Positions 17,872 through 32,717 of a DNA stretch of 36,645 nucleotides are shown here, piece after piece; the first letter of the stretch is position 1; each line of letters starts with the position of its first letter. Below the pieces are notes generated by a model. The model did not search any database, had not been told where the DNA came from, and saw nothing but the letters and a program-made list of their open reading frames with translations. The stretch comes from Bacilli bacterium (GTDB taxonomy: Bacteria > Bacillota_I > Bacilli_A > RFN20 > UBA1709), in NCBI GenBank assembly GCA_028693955.1, contig JAQUUH010000009.1, positions 1-36,645 of the forward strand, in the 5' to 3' direction. The position numbers were made by a program, and so were the translations under genes.

Positions 17872-18204
17872 TTATTTTCTATTTGAATCTTTATCAGTAT
17901 TTATCTCATTATTTACCTTCTTAAGGTGTGGTATTAAAGTTATGAAAAAAATCAAATCTATGAAAACAGATATAGCCAAAGCTATAGCAAATAATGTTGT
18001 TCCATAATTTTCTATTTGAAAATCAGATACAATCAATAAAAACCCATTTATTATTGATATTATTTGAGTTCTTTTCCCCATTTTTTCAAATCTTTCATCT
18101 TTATCTTTTTTGCTTCTTAGACGTGCTCCAAAAAATAATAATCCCATGACAATTACACCAACTATTATTTTTCTAACTACCTCATTTTCAAACAAATTAG
18201 ACAC
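17872..18204 (-). CDS. Small membrane protein of unknown function
   Basis: I do not recognise this 110-residue protein. It has a hydrophobic segment at about residues 11-27 (KIIVGVIVMGLLFFGA), then a basic loop (RSKKDKDERFEKMGKR), probably cytoplasmic. Two further hydrophobic stretches follow (about 47-60 and 67-92, the latter with LFAIALAISVFIDLIFFI), and then a charged tail (NEINTDKDSNRK). The ATG at 18204 has AAGGTG upstream. It sits between the rpsO terminator and pnp, with no room for a normal promoter after the terminator, so it is probably expressed by read-through. Confidence 0.75.
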   Translation of the reverse strand: MSNLFENEVVRKIIVGVIVMGLLFFGARLRSKKDKDERFEKMGKRTQIISIINGFLLIVSDFQIENYGTTLFAIALAISVFIDLIFFITLIPHLKKVNNEINTDKDSNRK

Positions 18205-18257: not shown

Positions 18258-18527
18258 TTACTTTCTAATATTTAGTTCAGTAATTGTTTTTGTATAACGT
18301 TCCAAAGAGATTCTCTTCAAATAATCTAGCAAACCTCTTCTTTTACCTACAAGAACCAACAATCCACGACGTGAATGATTATCATTCTTATGAACTTTTA
18401 AATGTTCTGTAAGAGTGCTAATTTGCTCTGTCATTATTGCAATTTGAACTTCTGGGGAACCTGTGTCTCCCTCTTTCAATCCAAATTTTGCAACTAATTC
18501 AGCTTTTTTATCTTTTGATAATGCCAT
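18258..18527 (-). CDS. rpsO: Small ribosomal subunit protein uS15
   Basis: This 89-residue ribosomal protein binds 16S rRNA helices 20-22 early in 30S assembly. The sequence is typical, with [38 protein letters not shown] and [18 protein letters not shown]. The ATG at 18527 follows the strong ribosome site AAGGAGG (18542-18536). It has its own promoter, a structured leader and a terminator, which suggests an independently controlled gene inside the larger co-directional block. S15 represses its own translation in many bacteria, and the leader here has a structure that could do this. Confidence 0.98.
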
Positions 18528-18646: not shown

Positions 18647-19993
18647 TTATTCTAGTTCCCAATTTATTTCATCAAGATCTTTTTCTTTTAAAAACTCATT
18701 TATTTTCGTAAATGGCTTACTTCCATAAAATCCTTTTGCTGCTGATAAAGGAGATGGATTAGTAGCAGAAATTACTAAATGTATATTTTGATTAATAAGT
18801 GGCTCAAATTCTTTTGCATGTTCTCCCCATAAAACAAAAACTTTTGGACTTTCATCTTCATTTAAAACACTGATTATATTATCAGTAAATATTTTCCAAT
18901 GCTCACAAAGATGATTAGCTGGTTTATCGCTAGGGGAAGTAAGAGCTGAATTTAGCAAGAAAACACCTTGCTTTGCCCAATTTATTAAACTCCCACTAGT
19001 AGGTTTAGATATTTTAACATCATCCATTGCTTCGTTTATAATTATTTGAGTTGTTTGATTAATTATTACGCCATTTCTTGTTGAAAATGCTAAACCATCT
19101 GCTTGATTTTTTCTATAAAAAGGAATTTTACCTATTATTACTACCTTAATATCTGAAAAATTCGTATATTGAAATGCCCTAAAAATTTCTTCTTTACTTG
19201 GATAAACTTTTTTATTATCATATTCACTTTTAATAAAACTAGAAAGAGAAGCAAAATATGGCTTTACCTTTTCAATATTAAATATTTTTTCCCAATCTTT
19301 TGGTAAATAAAATCTTAGTTCTTGCCAAAATTCAAATTCAAAAACATCTTGAGTCATATATTTTTCATCATCAATTGTACTTACCTTAATAATCTTTTCT
19401 GGATTATCTTCAACAATTTGCTGAATTAATTCCTTCTCTTCTTCTGTAACATCTAGTGATAAATTCTCTTTTGCAGTAATATTATTTTCTTCTTTAAAAA
19501 ACTCACTACTATCATTTTGAATTTTTCCTTCTTTATTTCCTACTTCTATAACTGGCTTTGGAACTAAATCAGAAAGCTTTGAATTCAATAAACTTTGAAT
19601 AGGATCTTCACTATTATCTATAGTTAAATCCGCCGTTGGATCTAACTTTTTATCTGTATAAACAATATTTGGTTGAATAGATGCTTTTTTCAACAAATAC
19701 TCTGCTCTTTCAACATCACTAAAAACTTCGCGGCCAGAATCTCTATTTCTTCTTTTAAATCCTAAATTTATATTTAATGAAGAAACATCATCATATACTC
19801 CCACTTCATATCTATATAAAAATATTAAAAAGTATATTATCACGCAAGCAGTAAATATTGCATATGCAAGAAGGAAATAATCATAATTGTTTCCTAGTAT
19901 TTCTTTGAAAGAATCAACAAAAAAACTAGGTATCATATATATACTAAAACCCAACCATATCACAGAAAATGTTATAACAATTGCTTTCTTCAT
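18647..19993 (-). CDS. Membrane-anchored uracil-DNA-glycosylase-like protein lacking catalytic residues
   Basis: The 448-residue protein has two hydrophobic N-terminal segments (about residues 3-24 and 39-60) and a long acidic, low-complexity linker (about 70-215). The C-terminal domain (about 218-448) clearly matches family-1 uracil-DNA glycosylase, yet the active site is changed. The water-activating loop GQDPYH reads GKIPFY (288-293), putting Ile290 where the catalytic Asp belongs. HPSPLSA reads NPSPLSA, with Asn412 for the catalytic His. Uracil-pocket residues remain: Phe303 in GLAFS and Asn348 in LLNSALT. Normal Ung is about 220 residues and soluble. This one is probably inactive as a glycosylase and membrane-tethered. 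AAGGTGG precedes the ATG. It lies 23 bases after ribF, so is probably co-transcribed. Confidence 0.85.
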   Translation of the reverse strand: MKKAIVITFSVIWLGFSIYMIPSFFVDSFKEILGNNYDYFLLAYAIFTACVIIYFLIFLYRYEVGVYDDVSSLNINLGFKRRNRDSGREVFSDVERAEYLLKKASIQPNIVYTDKKLDPTADLTIDNSEDPIQSLLNSKLSDLVPKPVIEVGNKEGKIQNDSSEFFKEENNITAKENLSLDVTEEEKELIQQIVEDNPEKIIKVSTIDDEKYMTQDVFEFEFWQELRFYLPKDWEKIFNIEKVKPYFASLSSFIKSEYDNKKVYPSKEEIFRAFQYTNFSDIKVVIIGKIPFYRKNQADGLAFSTRNGVIINQTTQIIINEAMDDVKISKPTSGSLINWAKQGVFLLNSALTSPSDKPANHLCEHWKIFTDNIISVLNEDESPKVFVLWGEHAKEFEPLINQNIHLVISATNPSPLSAAKGFYGSKPFTKINEFLKEKDLDEINWELE

Positions 19994-20016: not shown

Positions 20017-20946
20017 TTATATATTTTTTTGATTATCTATGCAACTAACTGCATTTTTTCTATCTATATCCATTTGATGGATTAATTCATCAATACTAGA
20101 AAACTTAACTTCATCTCTCATATAATATAAAAACATTACTTCGATTACTTTTCCATATATATCTTTATCAAAATCAAAAATATTTACTTCTAATAATAAT
20201 TGTTTAACTTCTGAAACCGTTGGATGGTTACCAATATTTGCCATTCCACCATATATTTTCCCATCTACTATAACTTTAACAGCATATACCCCTTTTTTGG
20301 GAATAACATAATCATTAGTATCAATATTTGCTGTAGGATATCCAAATTTCTTGCCATTTCCATAACCTCTGACAACCTTGCCTCTGATTTTATAATCATA
20401 ACCTAAAAGTCTATTTGCCTGTTCTAGAAATCCATTAATCAACAATTGGGTAATTCTTGTTGTAGAAATTTTTTCTCCTTCTTTAATAACTTCTGGTATC
20501 TCTATTACTGAAAATTTTTTTGATTGTAATTTTTTCAAAGTATTAGCATTACCTTCCCCATTTTTTGCAAATCTAAAATCAAAACCAAATATTAATGTTT
20601 TTATTCCTAAAGGATAAATAATTTTTGACATAAATTCTTCTATTGAGTAATTTGCAATTATTTCATCAAACTCTAAAATAATCATTTCTTCAATTCCTAG
20701 TTTTTCTGCCATTTCTATTTTATCTTCATTTGTTGTTAAATATGCTACTTTTTCTTTTTTTAAAACTTCTTTTGGAGATTTTTCAAAAGTAAAAATAGCT
20801 GACTTAGAACTTGTTTTTTTAGAAACTCTAATAGTTTCTTTTATTAATTCTTGATGTCCTAAATGAACACCATCAAAAAAACCAATACACGCAACTTTAT
20901 TATCGTTTAAATATGGTGATTCATATTTTATCTTAAGAATTTTCAT
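20017..20946 (-). CDS. ribF: Bifunctional riboflavin kinase / FAD synthetase
   Basis: It phosphorylates riboflavin to FMN and adenylylates FMN to FAD. The 309-residue protein has the N-terminal nucleotidyltransferase domain with GFFDGVHLGHQEL and the ISTTRI motif. The C-terminal kinase domain carries GKKFGYPTANI and GVYAVKVIVDGKIYGGMANI. The start at 20946 lies inside truB (14-base overlap). Its ribosome site is weak (only GGGGG 13 bases upstream), so translation is probably coupled to truB. The truB-ribF order is that of B. subtilis (truB-ribC). Confidence 0.95.
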   Translation of the reverse strand: MKILKIKYESPYLNDNKVACIGFFDGVHLGHQELIKETIRVSKKTSSKSAIFTFEKSPKEVLKKEKVAYLTTNEDKIEMAEKLGIEEMIILEFDEIIANYSIEEFMSKIIYPLGIKTLIFGFDFRFAKNGEGNANTLKKLQSKKFSVIEIPEVIKEGEKISTTRITQLLINGFLEQANRLLGYDYKIRGKVVRGYGNGKKFGYPTANIDTNDYVIPKKGVYAVKVIVDGKIYGGMANIGNHPTVSEVKQLLLEVNIFDFDKDIYGKVIEVMFLYYMRDEVKFSSIDELIHQMDIDRKNAVSCIDNQKNI

Positions 20947-21832: not shown

Positions 21833-21902
21833 TAAAATATATTTCTTAATGAAAAAGATTATTTAAAATAGTATAATATTCCCACTAAAGGATGTGCTTT
21901 TT

Positions 21903-23009
21903 ATGTCAATGAGAAAAATTTTGGGTTGTTTAAAACAGGCAGATATTGATTATGACCTTATAAAAGATGGCGATAAAATAGCTGTAGGAATTTCCGGAGG
22001 CAAAGATTCTTTTGTTTTACTAGAAGCATTAAATCTTTATAAGTTTTTTTCGAAGAAAAAATATGAAATAGTTGGCATAAATATAATAATGGGATTTCCA
22101 AACATGAAGTTTTTTGAAATACGCAAATGGTGTAAAAATAACAACATTGAATTTCATCAAATAAAATCAAAACCATTAATCTATGATGTTTTGAAACTTA
22201 ACAAGACAAAAGATGGAAAATTGCCGTGCTCAATTTGCTCAAAAATGAAAAAAGCTGCAATTAATCAAGCAGCAAAAAAATATAAATGTAATAAAGTAGC
22301 TTTTGCTCACCATAGTGATGATGCAATAGAAACATTATTTTTAAATATGACACACGGAGGAAGAATTGCCACTTTTTCTCCTAAAATGTTTCTAAGTAAT
22401 GAGAAAATGACTTTTATTAGACCATTAGTATACTGTCATGAGAAAGATATTGCTAAAACCGCTTTACAAAACAAGTTACCATTATGCATCTCAACATGTC
22501 CAAATGATAAAAATACCAATCGTGAAGAAATTAAATTATTACTAAAAAAATATTATCATCTTTTCCCACAAGCAAGGAACAATTTCTTAACAATGTTATC
22601 TAATACTTCTAAAATTGACATTTGGCAAAAAAAATATCCTGATGACTATTCTTTTATTAAAAACTCCAAAAAACATTTGCTTGAAAATAAATTAAATAAT
22701 GTAGAGAATATATCTTTTACAAGAGATGATAAATTTGGCAAAAAAATTGCAGGGTTAAATGCAACTATTGAAGATAATATCTTACAAATAAATGATGTAT
22801 TTGTTTCTCAAGATTTTTATAATAAAAACATTGAAAAAGAATTATATTATGATGTTGAAAAATATGCAAAAACCAAAAATATATCGACAATAATTCTTAA
22901 TATATATTCTTTTCAAAATCATAAAGCCTTTGAAGAGATGGGATTCATAAAATTTAGTTCATTCAATGGGAAAAACTATAATAAATTATTCTATAAAAAA
23001 TTAATATAA
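21903..23009 (+). CDS. TtcA-like tRNA thiolation enzyme fused to a GNAT-like domain
   Basis: Residues about 1-240 of 368 form a PP-loop ATPase of the TtcA group. The ATP-binding motif is SGGKDS (31-36). A CxxC is present as CSIC (Cys109, Cys112), and a third Cys in STCP (Cys199), matching the three-cysteine Fe-S site of TtcA, which makes 2-thiocytidine-32 in tRNA. Residues about 265-365 look like a GNAT acetyltransferase: LQINDVFVSQDFYNK, then an alpha helix, STIILNIYSFQNHKAFEEMG and FIKF. The acetyl-CoA loop (normally Q/RxxGxG/A) is eroded (FYNKNI). The start ATG at 21903 has AAAGGA 10 bases upstream; a GTG at 21894 is possible. TATAAT lies at 21872-21877. It is the only plus-strand gene in the 5.7-27.6 kb block. 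Confidence 0.82.
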   Translation: MSMRKILGCLKQADIDYDLIKDGDKIAVGISGGKDSFVLLEALNLYKFFSKKKYEIVGINIIMGFPNMKFFEIRKWCKNNNIEFHQIKSKPLIYDVLKLNKTKDGKLPCSICSKMKKAAINQAAKKYKCNKVAFAHHSDDAIETLFLNMTHGGRIATFSPKMFLSNEKMTFIRPLVYCHEKDIAKTALQNKLPLCISTCPNDKNTNREEIKLLLKKYYHLFPQARNNFLTMLSNTSKIDIWQKKYPDDYSFIKNSKKHLLENKLNNVENISFTRDDKFGKKIAGLNATIEDNILQINDVFVSQDFYNKNIEKELYYDVEKYAKTKNISTIILNIYSFQNHKAFEEMGFIKFSSFNGKNYNKLFYKKLI

Positions 23010-31918: not shown

Positions 31919-32656
31919 TTATTCAACTTTTAGGCATTTTATTCTTTTATTCAATTCATCTTTTAATGCATTAATTAATATCTCTACCATGGGTTCAATA
32001 TCTAATTCACGATTATACTTTTCAAAAGCCTTAATATATGCTTTTTTATCTTCTGCTTTTATAGCAATTGGAGGATAACCAGCTCTAATTAATTGATAAT
32101 TTATAATTAAGCGTCCTACTTGCCCATTACCATCTTGGAATGGGTGAATATTTTCAAATTTAATATGAAATAAAGCGATTCTTTCAATAATATCTAACTG
32201 CCCCATTTCTTTGTATTCATCAAATAATTTGTTCATAAAATAAGAAATGTGACGAACTGGTGGCAAATTTTGAGCATGTGGGATGGTAATGAAATCACTT
32301 CTATATTGACCTTTAAAATCATTACTTGCTCCAACATACAATATGCTATGCAATTCTTTAACAATGCTCTCTGATAAATTGATATCATCATCAATCAACT
32401 TATTTACATAATTCATAGCATCATTTAATCCTGCTGTTTCCAATTCCTCACGATTATCCATACTAACAGTCGTAACGCCGTTTTCAATAACATTTTTTAC
32501 TTGTTCGAACTCCAAACTATTTCTTTCAATAGCATTGCATTCAAACACAAACTCTATTTGACCATTATGATCACACTCTTTTGCACCTTTTGGATTTTGA
32601 TGGCGAAGAACTTGATATTCACCAAGTAGTCCAAAAAGTTCACTATGTTTTGCCAT
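31919..32656 (-). CDS. Fic-domain protein (probable AMPylase or related transferase)
   Basis: Fic proteins transfer AMP or another nucleotide-derived group to protein hydroxyls. This 245-residue protein carries the Fic core HPFQDGNGQVGR with His171, Asp175, Asn177 and Arg182. The first Arg of the usual GNGR is Gln179. An N-terminal inhibitory-helix motif (S/TxxxEG/N) is recognisable as CNAIERN (40-46). The Glu44 is kept, but the usual Ser/Thr and Gly are Cys and Arg. That arrangement suits a self-inhibited class II protein. No antitoxin gene lies beside it. The start at 32656 follows GGGAG with 5-base spacing. It has its own promoter and looks like a single-gene unit, and it is the most accessory-like gene here. 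Confidence 0.88.
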   Translation of the reverse strand: MAKHSELFGLLGEYQVLRHQNPKGAKECDHNGQIEFVFECNAIERNSLEFEQVKNVIENGVTTVSMDNREELETAGLNDAMNYVNKLIDDDINLSESIVKELHSILYVGASNDFKGQYRSDFITIPHAQNLPPVRHISYFMNKLFDEYKEMGQLDIIERIALFHIKFENIHPFQDGNGQVGRLIINYQLIRAGYPPIAIKAEDKKAYIKAFEKYNRELDIEPMVEILINALKDELNKRIKCLKVE

Positions 32657-32717
32657 AATAACTCCCCCCATATCTTTATTTCATATAATAGTATATATAT
32701 TTATTTAACTTGGATAT

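Follow-up and report, generated by a model that had tools for sequence, protein, structure and literature searches.

A Conserved, Predicted Membrane-tethered Paralogue of Family-1 Uracil-DNA Glycosylase That Lacks Both Classical Catalytic Residues in a Family of Uncultured Bacilli

RESULTS

Gene Layout and Domain Organization of X

The stretch of DNA analyzed here (the window) comprises positions 1 to 36,645 of contig JAQUUH010000009.1 and belongs to a Bacilli genome, G000, that is assembled as 910 kb in 47 contigs and is 95% complete. It encodes a predicted membrane-tethered pseudo-uracil-DNA glycosylase (pseudo-UDG), which we call X, and a small membrane protein near rpsO, which we call Y. 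Three other genomes of the same family, G001, G002, and G003, are used for comparison, G001 and G002 representing two different genera. The features of the locus are as follows.

20017–20946, minus strand: ribF, ending 23 bases before X
18647–19993, minus strand: X gene (pseudo-UDG), open frame of 448 amino acids
19802–19990, minus strand: N-terminal membrane hairpin of X, about residues 2–64 (hydropathy, AlphaFold helices, and alignment)
19346–19795, minus strand: linker of X, residues 67–216 (mostly at pLDDT below 50)
19301–19345, minus strand: added β-hairpin of X, residues 217–231, directly before the UDG domain (AlphaFold)
18650–19300, minus strand: family-1 UDG domain of X, residues 232–448 (Pfam, NCBIfam, PDB match, and Foldseek)
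19115–19132, minus strand: GKIPFY (residues 288–293), a degraded water-activating loop in place of GQDPYH (comparison with canonical Ungs)
18920–18940, minus strand: TxPxDKP (residues 352–358), specific to X, at motif 3 (comparison of three X proteins)
18743–18760, minus strand: NPSPLS (residues 412–417), catalytic His replaced by Asn, remainder of the Leu-intercalation loop kept (alignment)
18258–18527, minus strand: rpsO, the downstream neighbor of X
17872–18204, minus strand: Y, a small membrane protein of 110 amino acids and possible partner of X, encoded between rpsO and pnp

The reading frame named in the original prediction is open over all of its 448 codons, to which we add that it lies on the minus strand, and a ribosome-binding-site-like sequence, AAAGGTGGGA, stands directly 5′ of its ATG. 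Its location between ribF and rpsO is likewise as first described. ribF and X are likely co-transcribed, and in G002 ribF also precedes X, with a gap of 17 bases.

Two hydrophobic segments had been proposed at the N terminus of X, and these are evident as hydropathy peaks at about residues 4–22 and 41–59 and as AlphaFold helices spanning residues 2–33 and 39–64. The hairpin motifs FSIYxIPSFFxxSFKxxLGxxYD and YRYEVG are conserved in the alignment with the G002 protein, and a search of 56 other relatives returned no X-like N-terminal hairpin at a convincing E-value. When G002 X was modeled separately, this region was drawn as a single long helix (residues 2–91), so the fine details of the membrane part of X are uncertain. 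Positively charged N-terminal residues together with the two hydrophobic segments suggest an N-in, C-in topology, which would place the UDG domain in the cytoplasm.

The membrane hairpin is followed by a linker that is predicted to be disordered across most of residues 67–208 (AlphaFold). It had been described as an acidic linker of about 150 residues; the length holds, as does the acidity in G000 (net charge −15 over residues 67–231) and in G001 (−37), but the G002 linker is basic (+11), and acidity is therefore not a conserved trait of X. The G002 linker (L005:1213–1560) is rich in Lys, Pro, and Ala, an unusual flip of charge relative to the acidic G000 and G001 homologues. The UDG domain of X also differs in charge from canonical Ung, with −2 versus +4 in G000 and −8 versus +8 in G001, the two genomes in which both proteins are known. 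Between linker and UDG domain the models add a short β-hairpin, with strands at residues 217–223 and 226–231 in G000 X and at residues 175–180 and 183–188 in G002 X.

That X contains a full family-1 UDG domain, as originally proposed, was confirmed by profile, sequence, and fold searches. Pfam PF03167 matches residues 275–436 with 47.3 bits (cut-off 24.3), the NCBIfam ung equivalog NF003592 matches residues 230–447 with 236.9 bits (E-value 2.3e-70, cut-off 162), and TIGR00628 scores 194.4 bits (cut-off 185.75). The top match in a PDB sequence search is a Bacillus Ung (8ail, E-value 1.6e-54). The AlphaFold model of the domain is confident (pLDDT mostly above 90) and, in a Foldseek search of the PDB, has TM-scores (by target) of 0.92–0.94 at 1.6–1.8 Å to the closest bacterial family-1 UDGs, with an E-value of 9e-24 against 3zoq. 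X is not closer to UDG families 2, 4, 5, or 6: each of the five NCBIfam matches is an Ung model, and the PDB sequence matches and the best 50 fold matches are Ung-type UDGs. By descent and fold, X is a family-1 UDG. Because the equivalog score lies well above its cut-off, automatic pipelines would name X an active uracil-DNA glycosylase, which is an annotation hazard.

Active Site Residues Lost and Kept in X

Residues 288–293 and 412–418 read as the original prediction had them, with GQDPYH changed to GKIPFY (Asp to Ile290) and HPSPLSA changed to NPSPLSA (His to Asn412), and the uracil-pocket residues Phe303 and Asn348 are indeed kept. The list of altered active site residues was incomplete, however. 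In E. coli numbering, which for the X loops follows the loop table in PMC1936997, Gln63 has become Lys289, Tyr66 Phe292, His67 Tyr293, and Ser88 Thr314, and the prolines of the Pro-rich loop are gone. The kept residues are Phe77 (Phe303; Tyr in G002), Asn123 (Asn348), and the PSPLS stretch including Leu191 (Leu416). Read from its residues, X as an enzyme lacks the two catalytic features that define an active family-1 UDG.

The same changes recur in all three X proteins. Motif A is GKIPFY in G000, GKIPWY in G002, and GKFPFY in G001, motif B is NPSPLS in each of them, and the stretch GK[IF]P[FW]YRKNQADGLA, Thr314, and NPSPLSAA are common to the three. At the four changed motif-A positions the 29 canonical Ungs that were compared from across the order all have Q, D, Y, and H, as they have H in motif B, an invariance that arises partly by selection because these 29 were chosen by their motif-A Asp and HPSP; the three X proteins have K, I/F, F/W, and Y at the same motif-A positions. 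Residues Pro354, Asp356, and Lys357 of the X-specific motif are identical in the three proteins, all of which have Glu as the residue of the Gly-Ser loop. Among 58 positions that are near-invariant in the canonical set, 34 are unchanged throughout the three X proteins. Positions that have changed in every one of them make up 8 of the 18 in the functional (catalytic and phosphate) loops versus 3 of 40 elsewhere (Fisher p = 0.002, a descriptive value given that the loop set was picked from the literature and the three X sequences are related), a pattern that looks focal rather than one of diffuse decay.

Distribution and Origin of X

A second, canonical ung, which the original prediction had advised looking for, is present on contig 27 of G000 and encodes both GQDPYH and HPSPLSA; G001 also has a canonical ung with both motifs. 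No canonical ung was found in G002, an absence that need not mean loss, since the assembly also lacks the usual neighbor of ung. G003, the fourth member genome of the family, has a canonical ung only and is without X. The X gene of G002 (JAQUTO010000044.1) is full length, and that of G001 (JAAZGG010000100.1) is a fragment that begins in the linker at a contig end.

A profile search detected X in 3 of 279 genomes of the order, scoring 520–792 bits, versus 255 bits or less for all other Ungs. A pattern-dependent scan of GTDB r220 returned X only in the G001 and G002 records, and a DNA pattern for NPSPLSA..GF searched over 395 genomes of the class matched none but that of the window. All homologues found share the Ile/Phe and Asn changes and the rpsO-adjacent site. 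Homologues of the same architecture that keep Asp and His, which had been named in advance as counterevidence, were sought among them and none was found. A sequencing error or a lone pseudogene is ruled out, as three genera share X. We also rejected a phage origin, a scan of viral contigs having yielded no relative and phage matches reaching only ∼41% identity over the UDG domain alone.

The three X domains form one clade with support of 100/100. Grouping X with the family's own canonical ung clade is allowed (p-AU 0.52), and the tree itself leaves the duplication unplaced. Between G000 and G001 the identity is 51% for X and 66% for canonical ung, X evolving faster. Between G000 and G002 the amino acid identity of X (50%) resembles that of its neighbors ribF (46%) and truB (51%), and the differences at the three codon positions of X are 0.46/0.32/0.58; from these two observations we conclude that the X gene is under constraint.

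Genomic Neighborhood and Protein Y

The gene order is ribF-X-rpsO-Y-pnp in G000 and G002 and X-rpsO-Y-pnp in G001, where the ribF side is off the contig. In G003 ribF lies directly before rpsO, followed by pnp without Y, and ribF adjoins rpsO also in two genomes of other families (G006 and G008). X had been placed in a translation/RNA operon; the location is real, but X is an insertion into a standard ribF-rpsO-pnp order, and its site alone is thus no pointer to a role in RNA or translation. A terminator-like stem with a T-run (18254–18236, minus strand) directly follows rpsO and may partly separate the transcription of Y and pnp.

Y has two or three hydrophobic segments, measures 100–112 amino acids over the three genomes, and has no Pfam family match. 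It occurs in exactly the three X-bearing genomes (G000, G001, and G002) and is absent, at a convincing E-value, from 55 other relatives. Y may be a partner of X, which we take as a lead and not as proof because a single event on one branch could account for the co-occurrence. Neither X nor Y matched the PADLOC models of anti-phage defense at E-values up to 1.

DISCUSSION

X shares the whole fold of the bacterial Ungs, for which E. coli Ung, B. subtilis UDG (3zoq), and Coxiella Ung (3tr7) may stand, with TM-scores of 0.92–0.93 and 1.6 Å to the latter two, and it shares their sequence family (NCBIfam ung above cut-off), uracil-specificity Asn, and PSPLS wedge. It differs from them in being without Asp64 and His187, in its altered GQDPYH and Pro-rich loops, and in its membrane hairpin, long linker, and extra β-hairpin. 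UDGs of families 2 (MUG/TDG), 4, 5, and 6 and UdgX resemble X in lacking at least one of the two catalytic residues of family 1, and motif 2 of E. coli MUG is NPSGLS, with Asn where X has it. These enzymes are active and belong to other sequence families, whereas X has a family-1 sequence, a bulky hydrophobic side chain in place of the Asp, and an anchor in the membrane. In human UNG2 and other Ungs the UDG domain likewise carries a long N-terminal tail that is disordered (PMC9266487), but there the tail serves to bind partners rather than to anchor the protein in a membrane, and the domain is active. A limited keyword search of the open-access literature, which as such carries little weight, returned no precedent for a membrane-anchored or catalytically emptied bacterial family-1 UDG.

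The original prediction was of a repurposed fold that no longer cuts. The part of it that stands is a conserved, membrane-tethered Ung paralogue without both catalytic residues; that X does not excise bases, and what it binds, are matters of interpretation. We rank first, with a probability of roughly 40%, that X is a membrane-anchored, non-cutting binding module, probably for nucleic acid or a base. The loss of the cutting residues combined with the retention of the pocket Asn and the wedge loop is the pattern that such a binder should show. X is a duplicate of ung in a small family of uncultured, reduced-genome Bacilli; a predicted membrane hairpin of two helices, a long flexible linker, and a short β-hairpin have been added to it, and the water-activating Asp and the leaving-group His have been lost. 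The canonical ung of G000 and G001 would leave X free to specialize. The product would reside in the membrane, with a long tether leading to a UDG domain on the cytoplasmic side. The base pocket (Asn348 and the aromatic residue 303) and the PSPLS wedge could there engage a flipped base, or else a nucleic acid site that is single-stranded or damaged, and X would hold the engaged site at the membrane, perhaps together with Y. A more specific form, in which X and a partner membrane protein make up a base-reading receptor or tether at the membrane, recognizing flipped or uracil-bearing nucleic acid and leaving it uncut, is speculative, and we think it unlikely in this full form. If the reading is real, X documents the conversion of a DNA repair enzyme into a membrane protein and serves as a natural test that separates the binding residues of a UDG from its cutting residues.

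Several observations weigh against a binder. In G000 and G001 an acidic linker adjoins a UDG domain that is less positive than that of canonical Ung, which argues against bulk DNA binding, and the phosphate-gripping Pro-rich loop is lost, with Glu as the Gly-Ser loop residue. The kept loops could instead serve the fold or a protein partner. The stretch around the PSPLS loop is modeled at low confidence (block pLDDT of ∼59 in G000 X and 54–72 in G002 X), and the evidence on X comes from three sequences, that of G001 ending at a contig edge.

Ranked second is a role as a protein adaptor or regulator, in which the pseudo-UDG would bind canonical Ung's partners, Y, or, as a decoy at the membrane, phage-encoded UDG inhibitors, and in which the pocket would be vestigial; we regard this as a possible but rather doubtful account. 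A catalysis-independent protein role does exist for a UDG in vaccinia D4, the poxvirus processivity factor, which has altered motifs (PMC1936997), although D4 keeps Asp68 and His181, is active, has no membrane anchor, and has lost the Leu wedge, whereas X retains the wedge but not Asp and His. Proteins are known to target UDG surfaces, and complexes with p56, Ugi, SAUGI, and SSB are among the fold matches of X. The surface bound by UDG inhibitors includes GQDPYH, and a decoy should then have kept that motif. The reduced positive charge, the acidic linkers of G000 and G001, the long tether, and the strict co-occurrence of X with Y, a membrane protein, across three genomes would all suit an adaptor, but the co-occurrence may be that single event on one branch, and an invariant uracil-specificity Asn and PSPLS wedge exceed what an adaptor needs.

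It is improbable, in our estimate, that X is a re-routed glycosylase that cuts another base, or cuts slowly, with Asp356/Lys357 of motif 3 replacing Asp64, the third-ranked reading. The catalytic set is shifted in other UDG families: families 4, 5, and 6 are without the motif-1 Asp and families 2 and 6 without the motif-2 His, all are still glycosylases, and in families 4 and 5 a motif-3 Asn positions the water (PMC5387724). In UdgX a catalytic His has been newly acquired in a separate loop that lies outside motifs A and B (PMC10359453). With the shifted catalysis of families 4 and 5 and UdgX as precedent and an invariant TxPxDKP at motif 3 of X, sequence alone does not dismiss such an enzyme. 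Yet both classical residues are gone, a bulky Ile or Phe occupies the water site, Tyr66 and His67 are altered too, and the Pro-rich loop is lost.

Slightly less probable again, and ranked fourth, is a plain tether for chromosome, mRNA, or ribosomes that binds undamaged nucleic acid without base flipping. A membrane hairpin with a flexible tether, the basic G002 linker, and the Lys289, Arg294, and Lys295 added by the invariant GKxPxYRKNQ would fit it, as would an operon with ribF, rpsO, and pnp; the linkers and domains of G000 and G001 are acidic, however, and the operon order is the usual one into which X is inserted. A relic or annotation artifact, whether a decaying copy of ung or an error of assembly, might be read from the faster evolution of X relative to canonical ung but is very improbable in view of three independent assemblies whose open frames share both the new residues and the site, the codon-position constraint, and change that is focal rather than diffuse.

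Other Features of the Window

Rfam models matched only two tRNAs over the window. A Fic/DOC domain protein is encoded at 31919–32671 on the minus strand. Between truB and rbfA (21894–23009, plus strand) lies a gene for a fusion of a PP-loop (TtcA/TilS-like) domain with a C-terminal GNAT acetyltransferase, which is conserved in G002 (L037:1895–2977).
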